Source: Opitutia bacterium
GTDB lineage: Bacteria > Verrucomicrobiota > Verrucomicrobiae > Opitutales > UBA953
Assembly: GCA_947488485.1 (NCBI GenBank)
Contig: CANKZO010000006.1
Location: 1 to 38,907, forward strand
Direction of reading: 5' to 3'
DNA length: 38,907 bases
Shown here: positions 3,173 to 31,343 of the stretch, piece by piece
How positions within the stretch are numbered: position 1 is the stretch's first letter
Layout of the letters: each line of letters opens with the position of its first letter
Made by a program: the position numbers and the translations under genes
The notes under the pieces: generated by a model
Database searches by the model: none
Told to the model about the DNA's origin: nothing
What the model saw: only the letters and a program-made list of their open reading frames with translations

Positions 3173-3179
3173 GTCGCCG

Positions 3180-3596
3180 ATGGACCTCGCGCGCCGCCGC
3201 TCCGAGCTCATCGCCGAGCTCGAACCTTTCTCCGACCACCACGAACGCTTCCAGTACGTGATCGACCGGGCGAAATCCGCGCCGGCGCTCCCGGCCGACC
3301 TCAAGCTCGAGGCCTTCCTCATCGAAGGCTGCACGTCCAACCTCTGGCTGGTCCCGTCGCTCGACGACGGCGTCTGCCATTTCCGTTGCGACGCCGATTC
3401 GCTCATCACGAAGGGCGTCGCGAGCCTGGTCTGCGAGTTCTACGACGGCGCCTCGCCGGCGGAGGTCGCGGCGACCGACGCCGATTTCCTTTCGGCCGTG
3501 GGCATCACCCAGCACCTCTCCCCGAACCGCCGCAACGGCCTCACGAACCTGGTCGGCAAGATCCGCGCTTTCGGCCGGCTCACCGCGGGTTCCTGA
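3180..3596 (+). CDS. sufE: SufE-like cysteine desulfurase activator
   Basis: SufE accepts persulfide sulfur from the cysteine desulfurase SufS and passes it to the Fe-S scaffold. The 138-residue product starts MDLARRRSELIAELEPFSDH and has FQYVIDRAK followed by LIEGCTSNLWLVP, where the Cys (about residue 49) matches the acceptor cysteine of the SufE G-C-x-S-x-(V/L)-W motif. The C-terminal half (YDGASPAEVAA...LSPNRRNGLTNLVGKIR) is also typical. The Met at 3180 is used because the family N-terminus begins there; a longer frame running back into the TPR gene is rejected. No SufS or SufBCD genes are in the window. A hairpin without a T-run follows the stop. Confidence 0.93.
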   Translation: MDLARRRSELIAELEPFSDHHERFQYVIDRAKSAPALPADLKLEAFLIEGCTSNLWLVPSLDDGVCHFRCDADSLITKGVASLVCEFYDGASPAEVAATDADFLSAVGITQHLSPNRRNGLTNLVGKIRAFGRLTAGS

Positions 3597-3597
3597 T

Positions 3598-3617
3598 AAG
3601 CCCCATCGGCGGGGCTT
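3598..3617 (+). other. Hairpin after sufE
   Basis: AAGCCCC (3598-3604) pairs perfectly with GGGGCTT (3611-3617) across the 6-base loop ATCGGC, two bases after the sufE stop. There is no T-run on either strand, so it may be an mRNA 3'-end stabiliser or a Rho-assisted end rather than an intrinsic terminator. Confidence 0.5.
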
Positions 3618-3644
3618 AAGAAGCGGGATATGCGTGCTTGGGAT

Positions 3645-3650
3645 TTGCGC
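3645..3650 (+). promoter_or_regulatory. Possible -35 box of the haem A synthase gene
   Basis: TTGCGC, first base 34 bases before the ATG at 3679. Identical box and spacing occur before dprA. No clear -10 is seen. Confidence 0.3.
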
Positions 3651-3678
3651 CGGGGACGAAGGCGGATGAGATGACGGC

Positions 3679-4620
3679 ATGAGCGAGCCGGAAGCCTCCG
3701 TACCCGACCGACGTCTGTTCGGGCTGTGCCTGCTCACGCTGGCGTGGTCGGTGCTCGTGCTCCAGGCCGGCGGCTTCACGACCAGCATCCAGGCGGGCAT
3801 GGCCTTCCTGGACTGGCCGCTCTCCAACGGCTCCATCAATCCCCCGGGCTGGCTCACGGAGATCGACAAGTTCGCCGAACACTCGCACCGCCTCGCGGCC
3901 ACGGGCCTAGGCCTGCTCTGCGTGGTCATCGCCGTGGCGCACCGCCTGCTCGAGACGCGGCCCGTCGTCCGCCGCGCGGCCTACGCGCTCGTGGGCCTGG
4001 TCTTGCTGCAAGGCCTGCTCGGCGGCCTGCGCGTGCTCCTCGACCAGCTCAACCTCGGCGGCGATGGCAACTTCAAGGCCGCGGCCTTCGCCGTCGGCCA
4101 CGCCGTCAACGCCCAGCTCACGCTCGCGCTCCTCGCCTTCATCGCCCTTGCGCACAGCGCCGCCTGGCATCGCGCCGGCCGCGGCGAAGACCCGGCGCCC
4201 TTCCACGCCGGCCGCTGGGCGGCGGGCCTGACGCTCGCGGTCATCGTCGGCGGCGCGGTGATGCGCCAAGGTCGCTTCACCGCCTGGGTCACTTCCCCCG
4301 AACAGGGCCTCTTCCTTCCTTCGATCGGCGACGGCCTGGTCTGGTGGGTCAATCTCGCCCACCGCGGCGGCGCCTTGCTGGCGGCCTCGGCCGTGCTCTT
4401 CTTCGCCTACCGGCTGGCCCGTCACGGCTTCCCGTTCCTGCGCTGGGCCACCCTCGTCGCCTTGGTGGGCCTGCAGGTACTCCTCGGCATCCTGAGCCTC
4501 CGACTCTACGACAACCCGCACGTCCGCACCGTCCACCTCGTCGTGGGCGCCGCGCTGTTCTCCTCGCTCTGCGCCGCGGTCGCCCTCGCGCATCGCCGCG
4601 CCCGGACCGACGTCGCTTGA
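3679..4620 (+). CDS. ctaA: Haem A synthase (COX15/CtaA family)
   Basis: Membrane monooxygenase that oxidises the C8 methyl of haem O to a formyl group, giving haem A for aa3-type terminal oxidases. The 313-residue product has about eight hydrophobic segments in two similar four-helix halves. The haem-ligand histidines are visible as pairs: AEHSHRLAATG (about 66-76) and VGHAVNAQLTLA (about 138-149) in the first half, NLAHRGGALLA (about 224-234) and VRTVHLVVGAAL (about 281-292) in the second. Haem O synthase lies 56 bases downstream, so the two act in sequence. Their presence implies an aerobic aa3/ba3-type oxidase, but no oxidase subunit is in the window. Confidence 0.93.
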   Translation: MSEPEASVPDRRLFGLCLLTLAWSVLVLQAGGFTTSIQAGMAFLDWPLSNGSINPPGWLTEIDKFAEHSHRLAATGLGLLCVVIAVAHRLLETRPVVRRAAYALVGLVLLQGLLGGLRVLLDQLNLGGDGNFKAAAFAVGHAVNAQLTLALLAFIALAHSAAWHRAGRGEDPAPFHAGRWAAGLTLAVIVGGAVMRQGRFTAWVTSPEQGLFLPSIGDGLVWWVNLAHRGGALLAASAVLFFAYRLARHGFPFLRWATLVALVGLQVLLGILSLRLYDNPHVRTVHLVVGAALFSSLCAAVALAHRRARTDVA

Positions 4621-4635
4621 GCCGGCGCGACGGAT

Positions 4636-4641
4636 TTGCCT
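4636..4641 (+). promoter_or_regulatory. Possible -35 box of the haem O synthase gene
   Basis: TTGCCT, first base 41 bases before the ATG at 4677. No good -10; the gene may also be read through from the haem A synthase gene. Confidence 0.25.
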
Positions 4642-4676
4642 TTAACCCTGCGCGTAAACCCGCCACGACAAGACCG

Positions 4677-5561
4677 ATGAGCGAACGCGCCGGATCCGTG
4701 CCTGCCGCCTACTGGGAGCTGACCAAGCCCCGGCTGTCGTTCCTCTCCGTCCTGACCTCGCTCGCCGGTTATTTCTGCAGCGCGCCCACGCAGCCGACCG
4801 ACGCCAAGGTGCTCGTCTCCCTCGCCCTCGGCACGGCCCTCGCGGCCGGCGGCTGCGGTGCGGTCAATATGTGGTGGGAGAGCGACGCGGACGCGAAGAT
4901 GGAGCGCACGCGCAACCGTCCGATTCCCGCGGGGATCATCCGCCCCGGCGCCGCCCTGCTCTTCGGGATGCTCCTGCTCACCGCGGGAGTCACCTTGGTC
5001 TGGCTCGGCGCCAACCCGCTGGCTGGCGCGCTCACGGCCGCGACCGCCTTCTCCTATCTGTTCCTCTACACGCCGCTCAAGACGCTGACCTCCTGGTGCA
5101 CGCTCGTCGGTTCACTGCCGGGCGCGATCCCGCCGATCATCGGCACCGCGGCCAAACTCGGCCATATCGACCACATGGGCTGGCTGCTCTTCACGCTGCT
5201 GTTCTGCTGGCAGATTCCCCACTTCATGGCCCTCGCGGTGATGTGCCGGGAAGACTACGCCCGCGGCGGCTTCAAGGTCGCCACGGTCGACGATCCTTCC
5301 GGCCGTTCGGCCTCGATCTGGGCGCTGGCCTTCATCCTCCCGATGATCGTCGTGGCCGGCTCGATCGCCACGCACTTCTTCCCCGACTGGACCAGCCCCT
5401 ACGTCTGGGTCTCCTTCCTGGCCGGCGCCTGGTTCTTCAAACTCACCCTGGAGTTCGCCCTGCCCCAACGTCGGGCCGCGGTCGCGAAACCGCTCTTCAT
5501 CGCCTCGATCCTCTACCTGCCGGTCGTCCTGTTGACTCTGACGCTCAACCGGCTTTTCTGA
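4677..5561 (+). CDS. ctaB: Protohaem IX farnesyltransferase (haem O synthase)
   Basis: UbiA-family membrane prenyltransferase that adds a farnesyl group to haem B, making haem O. The 294-residue product begins MSERAGSVPAAYWELTKPRL; the YWELTKPRL stretch is the conserved start of the family. The first Asp-rich active-site motif is NMWWESDADAKMERTRNRP (about 62-80); the second conserved loop is TLVGSLPGAIPPIIGTAAK. Nine hydrophobic segments are apparent. The Met at 4677 is taken because the much longer frame beginning at 3726 is only a shadow of the haem A synthase gene. Functionally paired with the preceding gene. Confidence 0.95.
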   Translation: MSERAGSVPAAYWELTKPRLSFLSVLTSLAGYFCSAPTQPTDAKVLVSLALGTALAAGGCGAVNMWWESDADAKMERTRNRPIPAGIIRPGAALLFGMLLLTAGVTLVWLGANPLAGALTAATAFSYLFLYTPLKTLTSWCTLVGSLPGAIPPIIGTAAKLGHIDHMGWLLFTLLFCWQIPHFMALAVMCREDYARGGFKVATVDDPSGRSASIWALAFILPMIVVAGSIATHFFPDWTSPYVWVSFLAGAWFFKLTLEFALPQRRAAVAKPLFIASILYLPVVLLTLTLNRLF

Positions 5562-5565
5562 GCCC

Positions 5566-6147
5566 ATGGACGCCCGCGCCGCCAAGCAGACACTGCGCGC
5601 GGAACTGAAGGCCCGCCGCACCGCGCTGACATCACGGGAACTGCAGGTCGCAGGCGACGCGACGGCCCGATTGATCACGCAGCTCCCCGAATGGAAGCAG
5701 GCGAAGACGGTCTGTCTCTACGCGTCCTTCGGCGGCGAGCTGCCGACCGACGCCCTCCTCGCGCTGGCCCTGCTCGAAGGCAAACGGCTCCTGCTGCCAC
5801 GCGTGACCAACAAGACGACGCTCACGCTGCATGAGGTCTCCGACCTCGGCGCGCTCCAGCCGTCCCGCCTCGGCATCCGCGAACCGAAGCCCTCCGCGCC
5901 GGTGGCGACGCTGGCCGACGCCGGCCTGATCCTCGTCCCGGGCCTGGGCTTCGACGGGGCCGGCCGCCGGCTCGGCTTCGGCGGCGGCTTCTACGACCGG
6001 TTGCTGGCCAAGCCGCCCCGCAAGACCTTCCTGCTCGGCCACGCGCATGCCTTCCAGGTGATCCCGCGGCTGCCCGACGAGCCGCATGATATTAAAGTTA
6101 AGGCGGTGGCCACCCCGCAGGGCGTGATTCGCTGCCGAGTGCGCTAG
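5566..6147 (+). CDS. 5-formyltetrahydrofolate cyclo-ligase
   Basis: ATP-dependent enzyme that turns 5-formyl-THF into 5,10-methenyl-THF, returning a stored folate to the one-carbon pool. The 193-residue product has usual family length and motifs: KQTLRAELKARR at the N-terminus, KTVCLYASFGGELPT (about 45-59), LILVPGLGFDGAGRRLGFGG (about 122-141) followed by GFYDR, the phosphate-binding signature. It starts 4 bases after the haem O synthase stop with no Shine-Dalgarno sequence, so it is probably translated from the same transcript. Known in bacteria as ygfA or fthC. Confidence 0.95.
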   Translation: MDARAAKQTLRAELKARRTALTSRELQVAGDATARLITQLPEWKQAKTVCLYASFGGELPTDALLALALLEGKRLLLPRVTNKTTLTLHEVSDLGALQPSRLGIREPKPSAPVATLADAGLILVPGLGFDGAGRRLGFGGGFYDRLLAKPPRKTFLLGHAHAFQVIPRLPDEPHDIKVKAVATPQGVIRCRVR

Positions 6148-6158: not shown

Positions 6159-6190
6159 AGCGGGACGATTCGTGTCCGATGGAGGGTCCG

Positions 6191-9100
6191 ATGTCCGCCC
6201 CCCGCCCAGACGCGATCCGCCTTCGCGGCGTCCGCCAGAACAACCTGAAGGGCTTCGACGTCGACATCCCGGTCGGCAAGCTGGTCGTGGTCACGGGCCT
6301 CAGCGGTGCGGGCAAATCCTCTTTGGTCTTCGACACGCTGCACGCCGAAGGGCAACGCCGCTACGTCGAGACGTTCAGCCCTTACGTCCGCCAGTTCCTG
6401 GAACTCCTCCCTTCGCCGGCCCTCGATTCCGCGGAGAACGTCCGTCCGTCCGTCGCGATCAAGCAAGGCAACGCGGTCCGCACGTCGCGCTCGACGGTCG
6501 GCACGATGACGGAGCTCTGCGACTGGTTCAAAGTCTGGTTCGCCCATCGCGCCGACCTCGTCGATCCCGCCAGCGGCCAGGTCATCGTCCCGCGCGGCCC
6601 CGACGCCGCGTGGACGGATTCGCTCGCGCGTTTCCCGGGACAGTCGCTCTCGCTCGCGTTCGCGGTCGCCAAGCCGGAATCGCTGGGCTGGCCGACCATC
6701 GCCGAAGAATTCGCCAAGGCGGGCTTCAACCGCGCCTTCGCCGCCGGCCGACGTATCCGGCTGACGGAGGACGAGATCCCTGCCGACGCAGCCGAACTGC
6801 TCGTGATCCAGGATCGCGTGACGATCTCCGCCGACCAGGCGTCGCGCTTCCATGAGGCGGCCCTCGCGGCCTTCCGCCTCGGCGGCGCCCGCCTCCGCCT
6901 GCTCGACGACCAGGGCAACGAGCTTTCGCGTTACAGCGAGGTGCTCGAATCGCCGGTCGACGGACGGAAGTTCCGCCCGGCCTCGCCCGCGCTCTTCTCC
7001 TTCAATTCTCCCGTCGGCGCGTGTCCGGAGTGCCGCGGCTTCGGCCGCGTCATCGGGCTGGACTGGCAGAAGATCATCCCGAACCCGGCGCTGACGCTCG
7101 CGGAAGGCGCGATCGCCCCGTTCCAAGGGACGGTCTACGGCGAATCGCAGAAGGACCTGACGCGCGCCTGCCGCAAGGCGGGCATCCCGATGGACGTGCC
7201 GTGGAAGAAACTCTCCGCAGCGCATCGTAAATTCGTCGAGCACGGCGAGCCGGGCTACGTCCAGGGTTCCTATGATTCGATGTGGTATGGCGTGCGCGGT
7301 TTCTTCCGCTGGCTGGAAGGCACGACCTACAAGATGCACGTGCGGGTCTTCCTCTCCCGCTGGCGTGCCTACGAATCCTGTCCGAAATGCCATGGAAAGC
7401 GCTTCCGCGAAGAATCCCTCTTCTGGCGCTGGCAGGGTAAGTCGCTCCCGGAACTCTATGCTTCGCCGGTGTCGGACCTGCGCGCGATGCTGGCGCCGCT
7501 CGCGCCGAAGGACTCCCGCCATCCGGCCGACCACGCGCTCGAGGCCATCCTCGCGCGCCTCGGCTACCTCGAAGCGGTCGGCCTCGGCTACCTCGCGCTC
7601 GATCGCTTGTCCCGCACGCTCTCCGGCGGCGAAGTCCAGCGCGTCAACCTGACCTCCTGCCTCGGCGCCTGCTTGGCGGATACGGTCTTCGTCCTCGACG
7701 AGCCGAGCGTCGGCATGCACGCCCGCGACCTGTCGCGGATGGTGGGCATCCTCCGCAGCCTCGTCGAACAGGGCAACACGGTGGTGGTGGTCGAACACGA
7801 CGAGTCCGTGATGCGCGCCGCCGACTGGCTCATCGAGATCGGCCCGCGGCCCGGCGCCGAAGGCGGCCATCTCCTCTACCAAGGCGTCCCGAAAGGCATC
7901 CTGAAGGTCAAGGATTCGGCCACGGGCAACTGGCTCTCCGGCCGCCGCACGCCCGAGACGCGTACGCCGCGTCCGATCGGCGACACGACTCCTCGGCTCC
8001 GCGTGAGCGGCGCGACGGTCAACAATCTCCGCGACTTCAGCTGCTCGATCCCGCTCGGCCGCATGGTCGGACTCTGCGGCGTCTCGGGCTCAGGCAAGTC
8101 CACGCTGCTCCACCAGGTCATCGGCCGACGCGACCCGGAATCGGGCGACGAAGCGACGGAACTGAAATGGGTGAAGTTCGACAAGGAGCCGGCGGAGGTC
8201 GCGCTCGTCGACCAGTCCCCGGCGACCCGCACGCCGCGCTCCAACCCGGCGCTCTACGTCGGAGCCTGGGACGCGATCCGCACGCTGCTCGGCAACTCTC
8301 CGGAAGCGAAGGCCGCCGGGCTCACGCCCTCGCACTTCTCCTTCAACGCCGGCGAAGGCCGCTGCGAACGTTGCGGCGGCGCAGGCTGGGAGACCGTCGA
8401 GATGCAGTTCGTCTCGGACGTCGCGCTACCCTGCCCGTCCTGCAACGGCAAACGCTTCCGCGACGAGGTGCTCAGCTTCCATTATGACGGCAAGTCCGTC
8501 GGCGACCTGCTCGCGATGTCCGTCACCGAGGCGCGCAAGTTCCTCGGCGAACGCACGCCCGCCTCCGCCCAGCTCGCCTGCCTCGAAGAAGTCGGCCTCG
8601 GCTACCTCTCGATGGGCCAGCCGCTCACGACGCTCTCCGGCGGCGAAGCGCAGCGCCTCAAGCTGGTCCGCTACCTTTCCAAGATCGACGCCCGCAAGAG
8701 CGGCGCGCTGCTGCTTCTCGACGAACCCACGACCGGCCTGCACCGCGAGGACGTGTCCCGCTTGGTCGGCTTGCTGCATCGCCTGACTGAAGCCGGCCAC
8801 TCGCTCATCGTGGTGGAACACCACCTCGACGTGCTGAAGTCCTGCGACTGGCTGCTTGAGATGGGCCCGGAAGCCGGCCCGGCCGGCGGACGCCTCGTCG
8901 CCGAAGGCACGCCCGCGGAAGTCGCCCAGGCCGGCACGGTGACGGGTCGCTTCCTCGCCCAAGGGGACGACGCCTTCGCCTCCGCCTCGACGACGCCGAG
9001 CAAACCCCGCCCGACCTCGATCAGCCTCCGTGGTGCCCGCGAACACAACCTGAAGGACGTCTCGCTCGAAATCCCGCACGGCTCGCTGACGGTCATGACC

Positions 9101-11707
9101 GGCGTCTCCGGCTCCGGCAAATCCTCCCTGGCCTTCGACATCCTCTTCGCCGAAGGCCAGCGCCGGTTCCTCGAGTGCGTCTCGGCCTACGCGCGCCAGT
9201 TCGTCGAACAGCTTCCCAAGCCCGACATCGACTCGCTCACGGGCCTGCCGCCCACGGTCGCCATCGAACAGCGCGTGACGCGCGGCTCCGCGAAGTCCAC
9301 CGTCGCGACGGTCACCGAAGTCGCCCAATACCTCCGCGTGCTCTTCGCGCGCGCCGGCGTCCTGCACAGCCCGACGACGGGAGAACCGCTGGAAGAGATG
9401 ACCGAAGACGCGGTCGTCCGCCTGGTCGCCAAGCAGGCGAAGTCATTGAAGAAGGGCTCGCTGCTCATCGCCGCCCCGCTCGTCCGCGCTCGCAAGGGCC
9501 ACCACCGTCCGCTCGCCGAGTGGGCCGAGACGAAAGGCCTGCGCCATCTCCGCTGCGACGGCAAGCTGCTCAAGGTCGACGGCTTCGAAGGCCTCGACCG
9601 CTATTCCGAACACGACGTCGACGCGGTCTTCGGCGAACTCCGCGCCGACGGACTCATCCTCCTGCCGGACGAGACCGAAGAGTCCGGCGAGAAGGCGCTC
9701 CGCACGCTCGTGCGCCAGGTGCTTTCGGCCGGCAAGAACGCCTGCGTGCTCCTCGCCGCTGATGGCCGGCAGGTCGCCTATCTGTCGACTTCGCGCAGCG
9801 ACCCCGCCACCGGCGAATCTTTTCCCGAAGTCGATCCGAAGCATCTCTCCTGGAACTCGCCGCGCGGCTGGTGTCCGGACTGCCGCGGCCACGGCCTCGA
9901 GGTCACGACGTTCTCCTCCGACGAAGAAGAGTCGATCAATGAGAATGCGATCGCCGACCGCGTCGGCGAAGCGGTCTGCCCGACCTGCCATGGCGAACGC
10001 CTCGGCCCGATCGGCCGCTCGGTGAAACTCGCCGGTCCGAAGGGACGCTCGTTATCCCTGCCGGGCCTGCTACGCCTGCAGCCCGACGAATCCCTCGCGT
10101 TCCTTTCCGGCCTCAAGCTCGAGGCCCGCGAGAAAGCCATCGTCGGCGCCCTCCTGCCCGAGATCGCCGCGCGCCTGCGCTTCCTCGACTCGGTCGGCCT
10201 CGGCTACCTCGCGCTCGACCGCGGCGCCGACACGCTCTCCGGCGGCGAAGCCCAACGTATCCGCCTCGCGGCGCAGCTCGGCTCGACGCTTTCCGGCGCG
10301 CTCTACGTGCTGGATGAGCCGAGCATCGGCCTGCATCCGCGCGACAACGACCGCCTCATCGGTTCGCTCAAGGGCCTGCGTGACCGCGGCAACACGGTCT
10401 TGGTCGTCGAACACGACGAAGACACCATGCGTGCGGCCGACCTGGTCGTCGACATGGGCCCGGGCGCCGGCGTCCACGGCGGCGAGATCGTCGCCCAGGG
10501 CACCGCGGCCGCGCTCGAGAAGCGCGCCGACTCCGTCACGGGCCGCTTCCTGAAGGAAGCCATCCCGCACCCGCTCCGCGGTTCGCGTCGACCGATCGCC
10601 GGTAAAGGGGCGCCCGCCGAGTGGGTCCGCCTCAAGAACGCTTCGCTACGCAACCTCAAGGGCTTCGACGTGCAGATCCCCGTCGGCCGCCTGACGGTCG
10701 TGTGCGGCGTCTCCGGCGCCGGCAAGTCCACGCTGGTCACCGACCTCCTCGCCCCGGCGATCCGCGCGGCGATCTCGAAGAAGAAGGATGGCGTCACGGG
10801 CAAGGAGGCGCTCACCGCCGTCTCCCACGAAGGTAAGCCGGCCTTCACGACGCTGTCCGGACTCAAGGGCTTCCGCCAGCTGGTGGTCGTCGACCAGGAG
10901 CCGATCGGCAAGACGCCGCGCTCGACGCCGGCGACTTATATCGGCGCCTGGGACCTGATCCGCGAACGGCTCGCTTCGCTCCCGGAAGCCGCCATCCGCG
11001 GTCATGGCGCTGGCTTCTTCTCGTTCAACACTTCCGGCGGACGTTGCGAAGCGTGCTCCGGCGCGGGCCGCATCAAGCTCGAGATGAGCTTCCTGCCCGA
11101 CACCTACGTGCCGTGCGAAGAATGCGCCGGCACCCGTTACGGCTCGGCCGCGAAAGCGATCCGCTGGAACGGCAAGTCCGCCGCGGATCTGCTGGCGATG
11201 ACGTTCGAGGAAGCCGCAGCGTTCCTGTCGTTCGATGCCAAACTGGGCGACCTTTGCGGACTGATGGTGAAGACCGGCCTGGGCTACCTCACGCTCGGCC
11301 AGAGCAGCCCGACGCTCTCCGGCGGCGAAGCCCAGCGTCTGAAGCTCGTCAGCGAACTCGCCCAAGGCCTGCCAACCTTCCGCGAGCGTTCGCGTGGCGA
11401 GATCCGCCCCAACCTCTACATCCTCGAAGAGCCGACCATCGGGCTGCACCAATCGGACTGCCGTCGCCTGATCGAACTCCTCCACGCGCTCGTCGACCAA
11501 GGACATACGGTCGTGGTGATCGAGCATCACCCTGACGTGATCGCCGAAGCGGACTGGGTCCTCGAGATCGGTCCGGAAGGCGGCAACGCCGGCGGGGAAC
11601 TCGTGCACGCCGGCGACCCGGAATCCCTCGCCAAGCTGAAGCGTTCGCCGACGGCGCCCTCCTTGCGCCTGACGCTCGAACGGGGCAAAGTCCCCCGAAT
11701 TGGCTGA
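6191..11707 (+). CDS. uvrA: Giant double-length UvrA excinuclease subunit
   Basis: Damage-recognition ATPase of nucleotide excision repair; UvrA loads UvrB on lesions. Ordinary UvrA is about 940 residues with two ABC ATPase modules; this one has 1,838 residues and four, i.e. two UvrA units head to tail (about 1-940 and 945-1838). Walker A motifs lie near residues 36 (GLSGAGKSS), 629 (GVSGSGKST), 970 (GVSGSGKSS) and 1505 (GVSGAGKST). Four TLSGGE signatures lie near 476, 814, 1347 and 1710. Walker B regions read LDEPSVGMH, LDEPTTGLH, LDEPSIGLH and LEEPTIGLH; the last has Glu for the usual Mg-binding Asp. CxxC zinc pairs occur in both units (CPECRG, CPKCHG, CERCGG, CPSCNG; CPDCRG, CPTCHG, CEACSG, CEECAG). 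The start at 6191 is preferred over 6179 because GGAGG lies 5 bases before it. From memory, Chlamydiae have a similar about 1,790-residue UvrA. Confidence 0.96.
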   Translation: MSAPRPDAIRLRGVRQNNLKGFDVDIPVGKLVVVTGLSGAGKSSLVFDTLHAEGQRRYVETFSPYVRQFLELLPSPALDSAENVRPSVAIKQGNAVRTSRSTVGTMTELCDWFKVWFAHRADLVDPASGQVIVPRGPDAAWTDSLARFPGQSLSLAFAVAKPESLGWPTIAEEFAKAGFNRAFAAGRRIRLTEDEIPADAAELLVIQDRVTISADQASRFHEAALAAFRLGGARLRLLDDQGNELSRYSEVLESPVDGRKFRPASPALFSFNSPVGACPECRGFGRVIGLDWQKIIPNPALTLAEGAIAPFQGTVYGESQKDLTRACRKAGIPMDVPWKKLSAAHRKFVEHGEPGYVQGSYDSMWYGVRGFFRWLEGTTYKMHVRVFLSRWRAYESCPKCHGKRFREESLFWRWQGKSLPELYASPVSDLRAMLAPLAPKDSRHPADHALEAILARLGYLEAVGLGYLALDRLSRTLSGGEVQRVNLTSCLGACLADTVFVLDEPSVGMHARDLSRMVGILRSLVEQGNTVVVVEHDESVMRAADWLIEIGPRPGAEGGHLLYQGVPKGILKVKDSATGNWLSGRRTPETRTPRPIGDTTPRLRVSGATVNNLRDFSCSIPLGRMVGLCGVSGSGKSTLLHQVIGRRDPESGDEATELKWVKFDKEPAEVALVDQSPATRTPRSNPALYVGAWDAIRTLLGNSPEAKAAGLTPSHFSFNAGEGRCERCGGAGWETVEMQFVSDVALPCPSCNGKRFRDEVLSFHYDGKSVGDLLAMSVTEARKFLGERTPASAQLACLEEVGLGYLSMGQPLTTLSGGEAQRLKLVRYLSKIDARKSGALLLLDEPTTGLHREDVSRLVGLLHRLTEAGHSLIVVEHHLDVLKSCDWLLEMGPEAGPAGGRLVAEGTPAEVAQAGTVTGRFLAQGDDAFASASTTPSKPRPTSISLRGAREHNLKDVSLEIPHGSLTVMTGVSGSGKSSLAFDILFAEGQRRFLECVSAYARQFVEQLPKPDIDSLTGLPPTVAIEQRVTRGSAKSTVATVTEVAQYLRVLFARAGVLHSPTTGEPLEEMTEDAVVRLVAKQAKSLKKGSLLIAAPLVRARKGHHRPLAEWAETKGLRHLRCDGKLLKVDGFEGLDRYSEHDVDAVFGELRADGLILLPDETEESGEKALRTLVRQVLSAGKNACVLLAADGRQVAYLSTSRSDPATGESFPEVDPKHLSWNSPRGWCPDCRGHGLEVTTFSSDEEESINENAIADRVGEAVCPTCHGERLGPIGRSVKLAGPKGRSLSLPGLLRLQPDESLAFLSGLKLEAREKAIVGALLPEIAARLRFLDSVGLGYLALDRGADTLSGGEAQRIRLAAQLGSTLSGALYVLDEPSIGLHPRDNDRLIGSLKGLRDRGNTVLVVEHDEDTMRAADLVVDMGPGAGVHGGEIVAQGTAAALEKRADSVTGRFLKEAIPHPLRGSRRPIAGKGAPAEWVRLKNASLRNLKGFDVQIPVGRLTVVCGVSGAGKSTLVTDLLAPAIRAAISKKKDGVTGKEALTAVSHEGKPAFTTLSGLKGFRQLVVVDQEPIGKTPRSTPATYIGAWDLIRERLASLPEAAIRGHGAGFFSFNTSGGRCEACSGAGRIKLEMSFLPDTYVPCEECAGTRYGSAAKAIRWNGKSAADLLAMTFEEAAAFLSFDAKLGDLCGLMVKTGLGYLTLGQSSPTLSGGEAQRLKLVSELAQGLPTFRERSRGEIRPNLYILEEPTIGLHQSDCRRLIELLHALVDQGHTVVVIEHHPDVIAEADWVLEIGPEGGNAGGELVHAGDPESLAKLKRSPTAPSLRLTLERGKVPRIG

Positions 11708-24889: not shown

Positions 24890-26371
24890 TCAGTTCTTCG
24901 GCCGGCGGTTCAGCGTGTAATACGCATCCGCATGATCCAGCGACTCACCGGCGGCCGAACGGAGTCCGTCCGCATGCAGTTCGTGGATGTAAAGTTCCCG
25001 GAGTCCGTCGACCTTGAGCCGCACGCTGAGTCCGTCGGCGGCGACCTGGACGCCGGTGATCGGGTTCGGGGCGGACTGGATCTCGTCGCTGCCATACGCG
25101 CTCGAATAAAAGAGCGTGTAGTTGGTCATGCGGTAGGAGGCGAGGTCCCCGGCCCGGGCGACATCGACGGGCTTGGTGAACGTGAGCTCGAAGCCGTCGG
25201 GCTTGGCCTTCATCTCCTTGATGGCGAAGGGGACGTTGCCGTTATAGCGCAAGCGCTGCAGGCCATAGGCCTTGGTGCCGAGCGAGGACCAACCTCGGCT
25301 GGTCATGCCGACCATGAGCGAGCCGTCCGACGCGAAGTTGAGGCGGACGATGCCGGAGGCGAAACCGCCGACGAACGGGAAGCAGGCGCCCTGATACTCG
25401 CCATCGACCTTCTCCATGAACACGCGGCTGATCTTGGCGTCGGTGAACTCGGCCACGAACATCTGGCCGTCGAAAGGTCCGAATTTGCCGCCCGCGTCGC
25501 AGGTGACGAGGTCGGTACCGCTGCGCCCGACTTTATTGTAAGGCATCCAGACCGCGGGCGGGCGCATCTCGGGCAGCGCTTTCACGGCCTCAGGATACGG
25601 ACGCTTCTCCGGGATCTTGGCCGACAACTTGAGCGGAGACTCCGGACGGTTCTCCGAAGCGATGCCTTCCGGATTCAGGAAGAACGCGCCCTTGCGGAGA
25701 TGGTAGATCGGGGTGGTCGGGATCCACGTGCCCTGCTGGTCGACGCAGAACATGTCGCCGGCGAGATTGGTGCCGAGTCCGCAAGGCGAACGCATGCCAG
25801 CGGCCATGGGCACGAACTTACCGTCCTTATCGAGGACACCACCCCAGCCGCGCCAGGACGCCTTGTTGTCCGAGTGGTCGCCCATGTCGAGGTTGAGGGT
25901 GATCCAGAGCTGGCCCTGGCCGTCGCGCTTGGGGCCATAGGCGTAACCATGATAGGCGCCGGAAACGTTCCAGCCGGCACCGGCGGTGAGGTATTCGTCG
26001 GCGACGCCGTCGCCGTTCGTGTCGCGCAGACGCGTGGTCTCCGTGCGTTGAGTCACGAGGAGATCCTTGCCGTCCCGCAAAAGGCCGAGGGGTTCGTGTA
26101 GACCCGAAGCGAAGAGCTGGTATGTCACCTTGTCGGGCTTGGGATCGAGCACGCCACGCAGGAGCCAGACCTCTCCCTTGCGGATGGTCAGTGCGAGCTT
26201 GCCGTCGGCGGTCCAGTCCATGCCGCTGACCTCGAGGGCGACGCCATCGCCCGGCTTCCAATCCTTGGCGCGCGTATCCGCGGCGGTGCTCGCGGTCAGG
26301 ATGTCGGCGATGTCATAGGACGCCGCGGAAAGCGAGGCGGCGGCGAAGAGGGCTAAGGCGGCGGCTTTCAT
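24890..26371 (-). CDS. Exported beta-propeller protein, sugar-dehydrogenase-like
   Basis: Product of 493 residues with a signal peptide (MKAAALALFAAASLSAA) and a propeller-type repeat architecture: repeated blocks such as VSGMDWTADGKLALTIRKGE (about 48-67), LGLLRDGKDLLVTQRTETTR (about 96-115), LRDTNGDGVADEYLT, GMRSPCGLGTNLAGDMFCVD (about 192-211), and a C-terminal beta-rich part from about 395. This resembles the large soluble/PQQ-type sugar dehydrogenase and NHL-like propellers abundant in Verrucomicrobiota and Planctomycetota. No haem motif is present; PQQ binding cannot be judged by eye. Its start overlaps the cytochrome stop by 4 bases (ATGA), so the two are made together and may form an electron-transfer pair. 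Confidence 0.8.
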   Translation of the reverse strand: MKAAALALFAAASLSAASYDIADILTASTAADTRAKDWKPGDGVALEVSGMDWTADGKLALTIRKGEVWLLRGVLDPKPDKVTYQLFASGLHEPLGLLRDGKDLLVTQRTETTRLRDTNGDGVADEYLTAGAGWNVSGAYHGYAYGPKRDGQGQLWITLNLDMGDHSDNKASWRGWGGVLDKDGKFVPMAAGMRSPCGLGTNLAGDMFCVDQQGTWIPTTPIYHLRKGAFFLNPEGIASENRPESPLKLSAKIPEKRPYPEAVKALPEMRPPAVWMPYNKVGRSGTDLVTCDAGGKFGPFDGQMFVAEFTDAKISRVFMEKVDGEYQGACFPFVGGFASGIVRLNFASDGSLMVGMTSRGWSSLGTKAYGLQRLRYNGNVPFAIKEMKAKPDGFELTFTKPVDVARAGDLASYRMTNYTLFYSSAYGSDEIQSAPNPITGVQVAADGLSVRLKVDGLRELYIHELHADGLRSAAGESLDHADAYYTLNRRPKN

Positions 26372-28479
26372 TTCCAGAGATAAGTGAAGACGCGACGGCC
26401 TTCGGCGGTGGATTCCTTCATATCGACGATCATCCCTGCGGGATGCGTGATCGTCGGGGCGAAATCAGGCGTGGGCGCCCAGGTGACGGTGCGACGCAGG
26501 CCCCCTTTGATACCTTCGTAGGTTTCTGCGACCTTCACGCCGCCCTGTTCGTTGAGGAACGTGGGGTTGCCTTTGGCGTCGAGACGATAGCCGAGGAAAC
26601 GACCGGCGGGCTTAGGCCAAGCGACGACTTGTTCGCCGATGGGCTTCTCGAACGTCGGGAAGCGCGAGAACCACGTCAGGTAAGCGTCGAAGAAACGACC
26701 CTTCCACGCGAGTCCCGGTCCGCCCTTGTCGCCATCATAGGCGAGATGCACGCCGGTCGGGAACCCGACGAGGATCGCGCGGACGCCCACGCCGTCGAGA
26801 AACGCGCGCTGCACGACCGGACGGTCCTTGGGCACGATCTCGAACTCGCCGTTACGGTTCTGCGGGAAGCCTTCGGGTTCGCCGTTGGCGCTCTCGGCGA
26901 ACTTGTAGATCGCGGCGATCTGCTTGTCGGTGTCGCCGCCGAGGATCGTAGGGTTGAAGGATTTTCCGGCCGGCCAGAACGACGGCATCAGCGTACCTGG
27001 ACGATACCCGGCCGGGTTGATGAGGTATTCCTTGAGCCAGCCTTCCTGCAGGCGCGCGGCGATGTTGCTGATGTCGGGACCCTGGACGCCTAAAGACGGG
27101 CGATCGCCCCAGCGATGGCAGGTGATGCACCCCGCCCCGCCCTGCGTGCCGAGGAGCTTGCGGCCGGCGGTGTCATCGCCGCCTTCGAATTTCAGGGGAG
27201 CGCGCGCATCGGATACGCCGAGCAACTTGGCGAGATCCGCGACGGCCGGGCCGTAATGCGGCATCTTGGTCTTCAGGTAAGGCCGGATGCGATAGGGCTC
27301 ACCGCTGTAGTGCGTCGTAAAGAGATCGGCGCCTTTGGCCGCCGGGCGCTCAGTGAGCACGTTGGCGAGCCACTCCGGGCGGAGCTTCCCGCCGACGCCG
27401 GTGAGGGGCGGCGGATATCGTCCGGTGTCGCCGAGATTATGGTCCCCTTGGAAATAAGGCTTACGGCCGGCGTCGGGGCCTCCCTTGCCGTCGCGCTCAT
27501 GGCAAGCGACGCAGTTGAGCGCGTGCAAAGTGAGGTCGGCGGCGAGCTTGGCTGAGGCGACTTCGTCCTTCTTCGCGAGGAAGAGCTTCAACGAAGCGCG
27601 CTGGGCTTCGGAAAGCGCATAGCGCGGTCCCTTGGCGTGGTCGGCGTCCAGACAGCCGCCTTCCGTCTTCTTCAGGGCTACGGGCTTGGCCGCGGCGTCC
27701 TTGGGCAAGTCATGGCAGGCGGCGCATTGGGCGGCGATGACGGCCTTACGGCCGGCGATCGCGAGATTCTTGTCGGCGGTGACGGACACGACGGGGACAT
27801 CCGTGCGGCCATCGCTGCCCTGGAATTCGAGCAGGTAACCGGCGATGTCGATCGCGTCCTGCTTCACCATCGTGGTCTTCGGCATGCGTCCGTCGGTCCG
27901 CACCTTGAGCGGGTCGACGATGAAGTTCGCGAGACTATCGAGGCTATACTTCGCCTTCAGGTCGCCGAAGCCGACGCTGCGATGCGTGAACTCGGAAGCC
28001 TTGGGGAGGCCGTCGGGCGGGACGAACCCTTTGCCCGGCGCATGGCACGCGACGCAGCCCAGCGTGTTGAAGAGCTCGCCACCCCGGGCACCGTTCACGT
28101 GCAGGATCTTCGCCGGGCCCTTGGAGGCGGTCTTCGGCTTCAACGAGGCGAGGTAATGTTCGATCGCGACGAGGGTCTTGTCGTCGGCCTTCGCGAGGAC
28201 CTGCGGCATGACCGTGCCAGGATGCACGGAGGCCGGATCCGCGATGAACTTACGCAACCATTCGGAACGGACGCGCTGGGTGACGGTGGCGAGCGCGGGC
28301 CCGCGCATGGCAGGCAGACCGGTCGCGCCGCCATGGCAGTTCACGCAACCGAGCTCATTGTAAAGAAGCCGACCACCTTCGGCCGTCGGCGTCGCGGCGT
28401 GGAAACGCTCGAAGCCCGTGACGAGCGGTTCGGCGCCCAGCGCGGCGCCGGCCAAGAGGATGGCGGCCCGGAAGATCAT
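26368..28479 (-). CDS. Secreted pentahaem c-type cytochrome
   Basis: Product of 703 residues with a signal peptide (MIFRAAILLAGAALGA). Five CxxCH haem-attachment motifs: CVNCH (45-49), CVACH (142-146), CAACH (252-256), CVACH (323-327) and CITCH (451-455). Four MP motifs that could supply axial methionines follow haems 1, 2, 4 and 5 (Met 91, 199, 406, 499); the third haem segment has none. The last about 150 residues carry no haem and look beta-rich, possibly a DUF6797-type domain (from memory). It would act in the periplasm, passing electrons from a dehydrogenase to the respiratory chain. The ATG at 28479 overlaps the stop of the isomerase gene as ATGA; the in-frame ATG at 28497 would add 6 residues before the signal peptide and is less likely. 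Confidence 0.9.
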   Translation of the reverse strand: MIFRAAILLAGAALGAEPLVTGFERFHAATPTAEGGRLLYNELGCVNCHGGATGLPAMRGPALATVTQRVRSEWLRKFIADPASVHPGTVMPQVLAKADDKTLVAIEHYLASLKPKTASKGPAKILHVNGARGGELFNTLGCVACHAPGKGFVPPDGLPKASEFTHRSVGFGDLKAKYSLDSLANFIVDPLKVRTDGRMPKTTMVKQDAIDIAGYLLEFQGSDGRTDVPVVSVTADKNLAIAGRKAVIAAQCAACHDLPKDAAAKPVALKKTEGGCLDADHAKGPRYALSEAQRASLKLFLAKKDEVASAKLAADLTLHALNCVACHERDGKGGPDAGRKPYFQGDHNLGDTGRYPPPLTGVGGKLRPEWLANVLTERPAAKGADLFTTHYSGEPYRIRPYLKTKMPHYGPAVADLAKLLGVSDARAPLKFEGGDDTAGRKLLGTQGGAGCITCHRWGDRPSLGVQGPDISNIAARLQEGWLKEYLINPAGYRPGTLMPSFWPAGKSFNPTILGGDTDKQIAAIYKFAESANGEPEGFPQNRNGEFEIVPKDRPVVQRAFLDGVGVRAILVGFPTGVHLAYDGDKGGPGLAWKGRFFDAYLTWFSRFPTFEKPIGEQVVAWPKPAGRFLGYRLDAKGNPTFLNEQGGVKVAETYEGIKGGLRRTVTWAPTPDFAPTITHPAGMIVDMKESTAEGRRVFTYLWK

Positions 28480-29402
28480 GCCGTCTCGCGGACGCACTTC
28501 TCGACGTAGGCGCGCGACTCGTTGATGAGCGCGGTGACCTCGGCGGTGGTCGGCATCACGGGGATGCCACGGGGCGTAGGGTGCATGAAGAGTTCGACCT
28601 GGCCGTTGAAACGGATGTCGCGCAGAGCCTTCACGATCGGGCGGTAGTCCAGCTTACCGCGGCCGGCCATCTGGCGGAGTTCCTCTTCCTTCGATGCCTT
28701 CTTGAAGATGCCCTCGGAGTGTTCCTGGAAATACATGAACGGGAGGTTCTTGGCGCCGAGGTCGCGCAGGAGCGCCGGAATCTGGTCGGCCCACTCGTGC
28801 AGGTGGTGCGGCGCGAAGGCTACGCCGAGCGCGGGGGACTTGTTCAGCTCGGCGAAGGCGCGGAGGGAGTCCGGATGATGCAGCGCCTGGTTCGAATGGT
28901 TCTCGATCGCGATGCGTACGCCGAGCTCCTCGGCCTTGGCGGCGTGGGGCTTCATCTCCTCGAGGAACTTCGCGATGGCCGCCTTGGCGGCGGCGCCGGA
29001 AGGGTTCTTCGGTCCGGTGCTGCCGCAGACGACCGTCGTGCCGCCGTGCTGTTTCACCCAGGCCATCTCGTCCTGGAGCTTGAACGGTCCGAGCGGATAA
29101 CGGGTGCTCACGCCGACCTTGACGCCGTGCTTCTTCAGCAACGCCGCGAAGGCCACGTCGCCGAGCGCGGTGGCCTGCTCGCGCTGGTCGCCGTGCACCT
29201 TGCACCAGATGTCGAGCGATTCGCTGCCGGTCTTGGCGACCTCAGGCAGCACCTCGGCGAGCGGCGCGTAGCCGTACATCGCAGACGAAAGCACGTAGCG
29301 GAGACGGAAGGGCTCCGCGGCTTGGGCCCGCAGGGCGGGTGCGGCGGCGACCGCGGCGGCGGCGAGGCCGGCGGAACGGAGGAAGTCGCGACGGGAAAGC
29401 AT
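28476..29402 (-). CDS. Tat-exported TIM-barrel sugar isomerase/epimerase-like protein
   Basis: Product of 308 residues beginning MLSRRDFLRSAGLAAAAVAA: RRDFL followed by a hydrophobic stretch is a twin-arginine export signal, implying folding with cofactor or metal before export. The mature part is an AP-endonuclease-2-like TIM barrel (sugar phosphate isomerase/epimerase superfamily): YPLGPFKLQDEMAWVKQHGG, VRIAIENHSNQALHHPDSLR (the IENH metal-ligand strand), LGVAFAPHHLHEWADQ, LPFMYFQEHSEG and FNGQVELFMHP. In other organisms Tat-exported relatives act on sugars or keto-sugars outside the cytoplasm. Met 29402 is chosen because the Tat motif starts there; the frame open to 29471 overlaps the upstream gene. 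It starts 4 bases after the DJ-1/PfpI stop and overlaps the cytochrome start. Confidence 0.9.
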   Translation of the reverse strand: MLSRRDFLRSAGLAAAAVAAAPALRAQAAEPFRLRYVLSSAMYGYAPLAEVLPEVAKTGSESLDIWCKVHGDQREQATALGDVAFAALLKKHGVKVGVSTRYPLGPFKLQDEMAWVKQHGGTTVVCGSTGPKNPSGAAAKAAIAKFLEEMKPHAAKAEELGVRIAIENHSNQALHHPDSLRAFAELNKSPALGVAFAPHHLHEWADQIPALLRDLGAKNLPFMYFQEHSEGIFKKASKEEELRQMAGRGKLDYRPIVKALRDIRFNGQVELFMHPTPRGIPVMPTTAEVTALINESRAYVEKCVRETA

Positions 29403-29406
29403 GGGC

Positions 29407-30096
29407 TTACTTCTTGGCGACTTCAGCCTCGAGCATCTTGATCCACGGGCCGACGAAGGCGCCGTTGTCATGGAAGGTGCGGCCGCTGACCATGTTCCGA
29501 TCGATGACGACGGGGGCGTTGACGAAGATCCCGCCGCAGACTTCGAGGTCGAACTTGCACTTCGGCACCGTGGCCATGCGCAGGCCCTTCACGATGCCGG
29601 CGCGGGCAGGGATCTCGACGCCATGGCAGACGCTCATCATCGGCTTCTTATTTTCCCAGAACCAGCGGGTGGCGGCGAGCAGGGCCTCGTCCTCGCGGAG
29701 ATACTCCGGGGCGCGGCCGCCGCTGAAGAAGATGCCGACGTATTCCTCGGGCTTGATGTCCTTGAAGGCGATGTCGGCGTTGATCGTGTAGCCCTCCCAC
29801 TCCTTGGTGATCGTCCAGCCCGGCTTCACCTCGTGGAGCACGGTCTGGTAGACGCGCTTCTCGGGCGTCGCGAAGACCGGCTGGAAGCCGGCTTCCTGGA
29901 GGCGGTAGACCGGATACATCGTGTCGAGCAGCTCGGTGGCGTCGCCGATGACGATCAGCACCTTGGGCTTCTTGGCGTTCTCCGGCTTGTCGGCGCCCGA
30001 CGAGATCGAGGCCTGGTTCTTGTTGTCGATGAGGCCGGCGGCGGCGGCGAACGAGCACAGGCCGAGCAGGCCGACGGTGAGGAGGCGGAGTTTCAT
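29407..30096 (-). CDS. Secreted DJ-1/PfpI-family protein
   Basis: Product of 229 residues with a signal peptide (MKLRLLTVGLLGLCSFAAAA). The mature part is a class-I glutamine-amidotransferase-like DJ-1/PfpI domain: KVLIVIGDATELLDTMYPVY (about 43-62), GIFFSGGRAPEYL (about 121-133; the Glu in this strand is a usual partner), and MMSVCHGVEIPARAG (about 153-167), where Cys in the SVCHG elbow is the expected nucleophile. Family activities include proteases, glyoxalases and sugar-modifying deglycases; the exported form is uncommon, and its substrate is unknown. First gene of the 24890-30096 operon. The ATG at 30096 is preferred; the extension to 30153 would run through the predicted promoter. Confidence 0.88.
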   Translation of the reverse strand: MKLRLLTVGLLGLCSFAAAAGLIDNKNQASISSGADKPENAKKPKVLIVIGDATELLDTMYPVYRLQEAGFQPVFATPEKRVYQTVLHEVKPGWTITKEWEGYTINADIAFKDIKPEEYVGIFFSGGRAPEYLREDEALLAATRWFWENKKPMMSVCHGVEIPARAGIVKGLRMATVPKCKFDLEVCGGIFVNAPVVIDRNMVSGRTFHDNGAFVGPWIKMLEAEVAKK

Positions 30097-30108
30097 GGGG
30101 GTATCAGG

Positions 30109-30137
30109 ACTATATCCTTTCTTGCCCGTAAAGTCAT
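30109..30137 (-). promoter_or_regulatory. Sigma-70-type promoter of the periplasmic redox operon
   Basis: On the minus strand ATGACT (30137-30132) and TATAGT (30114-30109) are separated by exactly 17 bases: 4 of 6 and 5 of 6 matches to the -35 and -10 consensus. The transcript would begin near 30102, about 6 bases before the ATG at 30096. The inverted repeat AGGA-N5-TCCT (30106-30118) overlaps the -10, and CATTACAGGTATG (30136-30148), imperfectly palindromic, overlaps the -35; either could be the operator of the divergent XylR-like regulator. Confidence 0.5.
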
Positions 30138-30179
30138 TACAGGTATGATGCACTAAAAGTAAGGTTTTTGGTCATCGCC

Positions 30180-31343
30180 ATGCCCGCCCCTGCCCATCGC
30201 CGCGCCCCGCGGGTCGCCCTCCTCATCGAGACCACCCGCACCTACACGCGCGAGCTCCTTGCCGGAGTCCGGAGCTACGTGGCGGCCCACGGCCCTTGGT
30301 CGACCTACCTTGAGCTCCGCGCCCTGGACTCCTCGCCGCCGACCTGGCTGAAGGACTGGGACGGCGACGGCATCCTCACCCGTACCTTCAGCGCGGAGAC
30401 CTCCCGGCTCGTCGCCGCCACGGGCCTGCCCGCCGTCGAGCTCCGCTCCACTCACTTCGCCGGCGGCCGACCGTTCGTCGGCTGCGACAACGAGGACATC
30501 GGCCGCATGGTGGCCGAGCATTTCTACGAGCGTGGCTTCCGGCACTTCGCGGCCTACAGCCAACGCAACGAGCAGTTCTTCGTCGAGCGCGTGGCGAACT
30601 TCAAGAAAGTCGTCCGCGGCTACGGTTGCCGCTGCCTCGAGCTGCCCGAAGACAACCCGGAGCGCGTCCCGGACTGGGAGCAGAGTCAGGCGCGCCTCAT
30701 CCAATGGATCGCGCAGCTGCCCAAGCCGGTAGGCATCTTCGCCTCGACCGACCAGCTCGGCGTCCGCCTCCTCGAGGCCTGCCAGACGGCGGGCGTGGCG
30801 GTGCCCGAAGAAGTCGCCGTCGTCGGAGCCGAGAACGAGGAGACGCTCTGCAGTTTCACCACCCCGCCCCTTTCGAGCGTCCGGTTCGACGGTCATGCGG
30901 TGGGCTTCGCCGCCGCGGAACTGCTCGATCGCCTCATGCGCGGAAAATCCGCGCGCGCCAAACCGATCCTGCTCGCCCCGAAAGGCATCGAAGTGCGCGG
31001 CTCTTCGGGCGAGCGGGTCCTCCGCGACCGACTCGTCGCCCGGGCGGTCGCGCTCATCCGCGAAGGAGCCACGCGTGGCCTCGACGTCAATGAACTCGCC
31101 GCGAAACTCGGCGCTTCGCGCAGCACGCTGGACCGCCGCATGAAGGCCGCCTTGAAGCGTTCGCCGAAAGACGAGATCCTACGCGTGCGTTTCCGCGAAG
31201 TGGAGCGGCTCCTGCGCGAGACCAACCTGACGATCGACCTCATCGCCGAGCAGACCGGCTTCACGCACAGCCACTACCTGCAGGCGGCCTTCAAGGCGCG
31301 GACCAAGCTGACGCCGGGGAAGTTCCGCCGCGCCCAGGCCTGA
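30180..31343 (+). CDS. XylR-like transcriptional regulator (LacI-type sensor plus AraC helix-turn-helix)
   Basis: Product of 387 residues. Residues about 12-270 form a periplasmic-binding-protein-like sugar sensor (RVALLIETTRTYTRELLAGV, then VGCDNEDIGRMVAEHFYERG, FASTDQLGVRLLEACQTAGV, VAVVGAENEE). Residues about 285-387 form an AraC-type double helix-turn-helix (LDVNELAAKLGASRSTLDRR; IDLIAEQTGFTHSHYLQAAF; LTPGKFRRAQ). This arrangement is that of E. coli XylR and its many relatives in Verrucomicrobiota. It diverges from the redox operon across an 83-base gap, so it probably senses the operon's substrate. ATG 30180 is preferred to the TTG at 30168; neither has a good Shine-Dalgarno sequence. 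Its stop abuts the stop of the convergent ABC ATPase gene. Confidence 0.92.
   Translation: MPAPAHRRAPRVALLIETTRTYTRELLAGVRSYVAAHGPWSTYLELRALDSSPPTWLKDWDGDGILTRTFSAETSRLVAATGLPAVELRSTHFAGGRPFVGCDNEDIGRMVAEHFYERGFRHFAAYSQRNEQFFVERVANFKKVVRGYGCRCLELPEDNPERVPDWEQSQARLIQWIAQLPKPVGIFASTDQLGVRLLEACQTAGVAVPEEVAVVGAENEETLCSFTTPPLSSVRFDGHAVGFAAAELLDRLMRGKSARAKPILLAPKGIEVRGSSGERVLRDRLVARAVALIREGATRGLDVNELAAKLGASRSTLDRRMKAALKRSPKDEILRVRFREVERLLRETNLTIDLIAEQTGFTHSHYLQAAFKARTKLTPGKFRRAQA

Follow-up and report, generated by a model that had tools for sequence, protein, structure and literature searches.

A conserved, apparently regulated gene set of Verrucomicrobiota that is probably a sugar dehydrogenase pathway with an interchangeable oxidizing module

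We analyzed a stretch of 38,907 nt (the window hereafter) from contig CANKZO010000006.1 of an Opitutia bacterium (assembly GCA_947488485.1). It carries a four-gene operon encoding a DJ-1/PfpI family protein (PfpI), a TIM-barrel protein (TIM), a five-haem cytochrome (CYT), and a beta-propeller protein (PROP), with a divergent regulator gene (REG). The analysis below indicates a conserved and apparently regulated gene set, probably a sugar dehydrogenase pathway in which the oxidizing module is interchangeable. The genes and sites are:

PfpI, 29407-30096, minus strand: DJ-1/PfpI family protein with a Sec-like signal peptide and the nucleophile motif SVCHGVE.
TIM, 28476-29402, minus strand: AP_endonuc_2 TIM barrel, Tat-type exported, with an altered metal site.
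CYT, 26368-28479, minus strand: five-haem c-type cytochrome whose C-terminal domain has no Pfam match.
PROP, 24890-26371, minus strand: six-bladed propeller like the PQQ sugar dehydrogenases, with a C-terminal beta domain.
REG, 30180 (ATG; alternative TTG at 30168) to 31343, plus strand: divergent XylR-like regulator with a LacI-type sensor and an AraC-type HTH_18 domain.
Putative operator, 30133-30174, minus strand: TGACCAAAAACCTTA...CATACCTGTAATGAC, two ACCT blocks 21 bases apart, adjoining a -35-like box.
Promoter-like site, 30137-30109, minus strand: ATGACT-17-TATAGT ahead of PfpI, sigma-70-like by consensus match only.

TIM overlaps CYT, and CYT overlaps PROP, by ATGA, and PfpI and TIM are spaced by 4 bases. 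Read directly from the sequence, the export signal of TIM is Tat-like and those of PfpI, CYT, and PROP are Sec-like. The original prediction for this locus had described the gene order, the two overlaps, the export signals, the haem motifs, and the promoter, and all five genes were found as stated, with starts and limits refined to those listed here. The window holds two promoter-like sites vs. a mean of 0.7 in shuffled sequence; terminator-like sites are not above the shuffles (4 vs. a mean of 4.2). If TATAGT serves as the -10 hexamer, transcription of PfpI would begin only a few bases before the ATG (30096-30109) and give a nearly leaderless message; close relatives are similarly spaced. Structured RNA and tRNA were considered and set aside, since the window contains neither a tRNA nor an Rfam match above the gathering score.

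Gene order was compared by tblastn of the window proteins against 50 loci taken from a CYT scan of named genomes. The complete arrangement, REG divergent from PfpI-TIM-CYT-PROP in this order, is found at 20 of these loci, which include close relatives, and some genomes that recur in the surveys below, and are therefore not independent (genome kinship is uncorrected). CYT identity across the 20 is 55-94%; among them are Opitutales, Opitutaceae (L068, L070, L071), and, as the cultured strain, Chthoniobacter flavus Ellin428 (L077). Two further loci hold one extra gene within the operon, a sulfatase (L041, 7484-8977) or a TonB receptor (L069, 4844-7990), and ten keep PfpI-TIM-CYT without REG (L033, L038, L040, L044, L046, L050, L051, L052, L054, L060). 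At these same ten loci the regulator is gone from between ClpP/ABC and PfpI, with the operon retained. PfpI and REG matches are absent at six loci despite several kb of flank (L065-L067, L075, L076, L080), the PfpI match at L079 spans 36 residues only, and the remaining loci are interrupted by contig ends. The original prediction had named conservation of the order in relatives as one of its checks, and the order is conserved. At L077 (11145-12564), the C. flavus PROP match splits into two frames near its end, which may be a frame break or a sequencing error in the record. The gene set is described in none of the titles and abstracts among the matches listed in our literature search, from which subscription papers are mostly missing.

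Farther out, CYT-like proteins occur in 60 of 286 genomes of the class (E 1e-20). In 20 regions around CYT, picked from the better matches in these genomes, PROP adjoins CYT every time, and TIM and/or PfpI are present in seven. Two orders occur among the seven, PfpI-TIM (L081, L082, L100) and TIM-PfpI (L083, L092-L094); the L081 barrel is of a different type, 23% identical to the window TIM. These frequencies suggest that CYT-PROP is a core pair and PfpI-TIM a second module.

REG matches Peripla_BP_3 (PF13377, 1.7e-33) and HTH_18 (PF12833, 1.4e-17), both over the cut-off. Its putative operator, with direct repeats at a spacing of 21 bases, is reminiscent of AraC/XylR sites. The REG-PfpI gap holds TGACSAAAAACCTKA, and in the window a second ACCT block lies 21 bases on, abutting a -35-like hexamer. 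The first block is kept from the window to C. flavus, L082, and L136 (where it reads GTGACGAAAAACCTGAGGATTGGTGCACCATAG), and the second is less conserved in distant relatives. A two-block pattern with a variable gap gave no window match and was replaced by a single-block pattern, which matches the window once, at 30160-30174 (0.05 matches expected when up to 2 mismatches are allowed). Over 26 genomes there are 15 exact matches in 14 genomes. Twelve genomes have a single match each, placed in the REG-PfpI gap; of the remaining three matches, two are in G072 and one is in G140, away from both genes. The motif was built from the same promoters and its presence there is not independent; the informative points are the single match per genome, its position, and the reversed control pattern, for which the scanned genomes gave one match in all. 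Some REG-bearing genomes (e.g., L072, L100) carry operator variants with no exact match. In genome G153 the sole match stands before PfpI and a GMC oxidoreductase gene, not before the TIM-CYT-PROP cluster of that genome (L135). From the operator scan and the G153 pattern, REG appears to serve its own locus as a dedicated regulator, and dehydrogenases of both kinds seem to be under the control of one regulator-operator unit. E. coli XylR likewise joins a LacI-type sensor to an AraC-type DNA-binding domain and acts at a direct-repeat operator by the -35 box, with what may be a similar spacing. REG differs in that its PBP1_XylR match (1.8e-4) is below the cut-off (22.2 vs. 27 bits) and in that it is apparently a single-site regulator of another operon. 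The proposal of an operon with a divergent regulator is supported, with a conserved order and a conserved operator, and its genes are presumably co-transcribed.

The nature of the oxidizing module is suggested by what stands in its place in relatives. Among 387 genomes of the phylum, PfpI is found in 17 (E 1e-45), TIM in 13 (E 1e-35), and PROP in 32 (E 1e-60). PfpI is present in all 13 TIM genomes; the two are immediate neighbors in 8, lie 3.2 kb apart in G165, and are far apart or on separate contigs in G153, G303, G374, and G531. In 12 of the 13, a dehydrogenase is next to TIM or separated from it only by PfpI: CYT-PROP in eight, a GMC enzyme in one (L124), and a Gfo/Idh enzyme in three (L125, L126, L128), with a Gfo/Idh-like frame 3-4 kb from TIM in G531. 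The L126 Gfo/Idh protein is closest to the BT_2158_fam glycoside 3-dehydrogenase, well under the cut-off. At L136, a regulator 70% identical and a PfpI 83% identical to those of the window are divergent in the same manner, and PfpI is followed by genes for a GMC oxidoreductase, for a Gluconate_2-dh3 subunit, and for a different type of AP_endonuc_2 barrel. Among solved structures, fructose and FAD-glucose dehydrogenases come nearest to the GMC proteins of L136 and L124; neither a GMC flavoprotein nor Gluconate_2-dh3 was found among the seven window proteins scanned. We also surveyed 46 PfpI places, 39 in the 286 class genomes and 7 more from the 387 phylum genomes, where dehydrogenase neighbors were scored by similarity to chosen query proteins (by match coordinates for G120, and with loci L032, L059, L069, and L072 standing for G001, G134, G165, and G252). 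A dehydrogenase lies near PfpI in 21 of the 46: CYT-PROP in 13, GMC in 2, Gfo/Idh in 5 (with one gene between in G209), and a zinc-type enzyme in 1. Two of the other 25 places adjoin a TIM barrel (L145, L158). G252 and G292, with identical coordinates, are probably one genome.

The PROP model (pLDDT 87.8) is a six-bladed propeller of the PQQ-sugar-dehydrogenase type according to Foldseek, VIA-align, and hhalign against GSDH proteins, a fold shared with sGDH, Asd/YliI, and AA12. Its invariant Arg194 is aligned by hhalign with the catalytic Arg of YliI, and His141, invariant in 39 aligned sequences, has roughly the spacing expected for the catalytic His, with 9 residues to the next Asp-Gly vs. 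8 in sGDH. The Pfam scan gave DUF7133 alone, just below the cut-off, and there is no sequence relative of solved structure at E 1. A phage origin was set aside, as PROP is unmatched in phage records at E 1e-5. CYT matches Cytochrom_C (PF00034, 1.1e-27) and has five CxxCH motifs, as do 60 of 62 relatives of 600-780 residues; no Pfam match covers its residues ~540-709 (window 26368-26880). The AA12 enzyme CcPDH is also cytochrome-coupled, but with a b-type cytochrome, whereas the window partner is a separate c-type protein with five haems. By a hydropathy rule, which overlooks some RR-type signals (L124, L148) and may admit a false one (L143), the N-terminus is signal-like in 65 of 66 CYT and 67 of 68 PROP copies.

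On balance we favor a regulated periplasmic sugar-oxidation operon, in which PROP is catalytic, CYT accepts the electrons, TIM and PfpI act downstream, and REG is the local regulator. PROP would be the catalytic subunit of a dehydrogenase for a sugar or sugar-like polyol, built on the propeller of the PQQ dehydrogenases, and CYT would pass electrons towards the respiratory chain. TIM, probably lacking the usual metal site, would then act on the keto-sugar by elimination, epimerization, or hydration. PfpI would process or disarm a reactive carbonyl product. REG would sense the sugar or a derivative and act from the direct-repeat operator beside the -35-like box. We infer the oxidation by CYT-PROP, the electron flow, the step order, the substrate class, and the activation by REG. 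Oxidation outside the cytoplasm by propeller and cytochrome had been put forward in the original prediction, and both the fold similarity and the swapping of dehydrogenases argue for it.

Several observations, besides the uncorrected kinship among the genomes compared, weigh against this assignment. PF07995 does not match PROP at E 0.01, and the likeness of PROP to sGDH is by profile only; the residue after Arg194 is Ser and not the Asx of the Arg/Asx dyad, whose role in sGDH-type enzymes has been described (PMC6881810). His141 may correspond to His144 of sGDH by motif spacing, but hhalign does not align the two. Of 20 host genomes, 1 alone has a pqqE match over the cut-off, and it runs across a stop. 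PQQ would therefore be scavenged or another cofactor used; E. coli and fungi are described as PQQ users without PQQ synthesis of their own (PMC6881810). The swap under one regulator and operator is seen in a single genome, G153, which also carries TIM-CYT-PROP elsewhere (L135) without REG or PfpI. Finally, none of the query dehydrogenases is near PfpI at 25 of the 46 places, several of which are on short contigs.

PfpI belongs to PF01965 (2.4e-29, 102.7 bits vs. a cut-off of 26.6), and SVCHGVE, the Cys-His nucleophile motif, is invariant in 16 non-redundant orthologues. The earlier view, that PfpI solely repairs or protects against reactive carbonyls or glycated protein and is not a pathway step, is compatible with a sugar-oxidation operon, and we hold it to be quite possible, though we lean the other way. 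Its nearest named relatives are indeed PfpI-family deglycases and proteases, although the named deglycase models are missed (NF040823, 94.3 vs. 330 bits; TIGR01382, 5e-33, 114 vs. 139.05 bits), the 25 places without a tested dehydrogenase nearby fit such a role, and export is optional. Against it stand the presence of PfpI in every TIM genome, in eight immediately beside TIM, and the highly conserved WTITKEWEGY and KCxFDLExCGG regions, which suggest a specific ligand. Export of PfpI holds for the window copy, with its Sec-like signal, and fails as a general feature: of 78 N-termini, 39 are signal-like, 38 are not, and 1 is cut, and operon relatives of 67-82% identity begin near the domain. Since Sec-like and Tat-like leaders both occur, export was probably gained or lost more than once. 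A distant PfpI branch (45-48% identical; L159, L160, L161) has for a neighbor a membrane protein with several predicted spans and a shared N-terminus.

TIM matches AP_endonuc_2 (PF01261, 4.5e-16), and its model (pLDDT 91.5) folds like the keto-sugar epimerases and isomerases. No one relative stands out in the fold search, where IolI, IolE, D-tagatose 3-epimerase, and others have Z values of 22-24, all within ~1 unit, and no sequence relative of solved structure is found at E 0.01. In the alignment with the L081 barrel, Ala197 and Tyr224 occupy the positions of metal-binding Asp and His. Across 23 aligned TIM sequences, H169 and H200 never vary, and conservation is 90% or more at E167, A197, Y224, and H274; E167-x-H169 is retained. 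We therefore doubt a canonical metal isomerase; TIM may use a site other than the usual metal site, and the isomerization in the original prediction is not supported as stated. Whether oxidation precedes the TIM step or isomerization comes first, the two orders are equally likely. The N-terminus is signal-like in 54 of 63 copies, and the remaining nine combine an RR motif with a hydrophobic stretch that is weaker. In Opitutales (L031-L060), TIM is of two types, ~90-98% and ~68-75% identical to the window TIM, and flanking genes are mostly 79-100% identical, a pattern suggestive of recombinational exchange of TIM.

A form of the pathway in which a 3-keto sugar is made and then eliminated by TIM is possible but doubtful. 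It draws on the partners of TIM, among them a Gfo/Idh enzyme nearest glycoside 3-dehydrogenase and GMC enzymes near sugar dehydrogenases, and on E167-x-H169, which resembles the Glu/His-x-His of C- and O-glycoside eliminases (PMC10628242). The described Mn2+ beta-eliminases bind metal through just the Asp and His that are Ala197 and Tyr224 here (PMC10628242), so TIM is not a Mn2+ beta-eliminase as described. Moreover, sGDH-type propellers are described as oxidizing C1, not C3 (PMC6881810), and no DUF1080 domain was detected in the family scans made, which covered selected neighbors. These eliminase systems and the levoglucosan pathway also pair an oxidizing enzyme with a TIM-barrel enzyme; the window set differs in being exported, in having lost the Asp/His ligands, in the added PfpI, and in an oxidation predicted to be cytochrome-linked.

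In the fullest version of this idea, which we rate as unlikely, CYT-PROP would represent a new class of glycoside dehydrogenases linked to cytochrome, TIM would eliminate 3-keto-glycosides without the usual metal site, and PfpI would be a dedicated catabolic enzyme acting on the elimination product, a 2-hydroxy-3-keto-glycal. On chemical grounds this glycal, an alpha-diketone in its enol form, would be a dicarbonyl of the kind open to attack by DJ-1-family cysteines. If true, this would mean a catabolic role for an exported DJ-1/PfpI enzyme, and it would point to a function for the propeller-haem proteins of the PVC phyla.

LacABC and FAD-GMC dehydrogenases (Caulobacter lactose 3-dehydrogenase, fructose dehydrogenase) carry a cytochrome subunit. 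The window operon has a propeller and no flavoprotein; GMC and Gluconate_2-dh3 occur together at L136, where GMC is likened to LacA by type only. In Caulobacter, lactose is described as being oxidized in the periplasm by LacABC and then cleaved with a DUF1080 protein (Price et al., PMC9007349). With its presumed periplasmic sugar oxidation, our operon could be an analogue of this route with other parts.

It is quite improbable that CYT-PROP is instead a glycosidase-like or carbohydrate-binding complex with glycoside cleavage as its direct activity. The idea comes from Lac161_ORF7, a protein with TIGR02604, HEAT, and TIGR02603 domains from Chthoniobacter-like DNA, which after purification released glucose from lactose (PMC5342196), a result that fits glycosidase or oxidative cleavage alike. 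PROP and CYT weakly resemble the TIGR02604/TIGR02603 domains but are far below the cut-offs (28 vs. 122.2 and 29.5 vs. 68.15 bits, respectively); oxidoreductases take their place in relatives, and five haems suit electron transfer. The PVC propeller-haem proteins and PSCyt clusters of the same phyla do bring a propeller and a CxxCH haem domain together; here these are two separate proteins, accompanied by a dedicated regulator, PfpI, and TIM, and the CYT-PSCyt likeness is by description. Planctomycete-specific cytochrome genes, some with carbohydrate-binding modules, are described in lake Verrucomicrobia as being of unknown function (He et al., PMC5615132). A stress or signaling role, with CYT-PROP sensing carbohydrate or redox state and the operon not catabolic, is very improbable: the single operator match per genome in 12 genomes and the absence of a recognized sugar transporter or glycoside hydrolase among the immediate window neighbors would suit it, but catalytic sugar dehydrogenases substitute in relatives, whose operons may contain a TonB receptor (L069) or a sulfatase (L041).

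Those neighbors are a MATE transporter downstream of the operon and an ABC ATPase and ClpP beyond REG, with no obvious link to it. Elsewhere in the window, 6179-11707 (plus strand) is an open frame of 1842 codons. Among relatives, a CoA-transferase III gene follows PROP at L068 (by Pfam) and at L069 and L079 (by N-terminal sequence only), L047 has an open frame of 1393 codons (1913-6094) between the ABC gene and REG, and a frame at L094 (14-523) near the CYT-PROP cluster resembles, as judged by eye, DUF1080 of the 3-keto-glycoside hydrolase type.

This gene group is conserved in lake and soil Verrucomicrobiota, and the sugar dehydrogenase of relatives hints at the role of its unexplained proteins. 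Propeller-haem proteins are common in the phylum, and an orthodox sugar dehydrogenase replacing the propeller-cytochrome pair beside the same regulator, operator, and PfpI gives them a testable function. The operon may thereby bear on how small-genome lake bacteria gain electrons from sugars outside the cytoplasm, and on a role for DJ-1/PfpI proteins in such a pathway.

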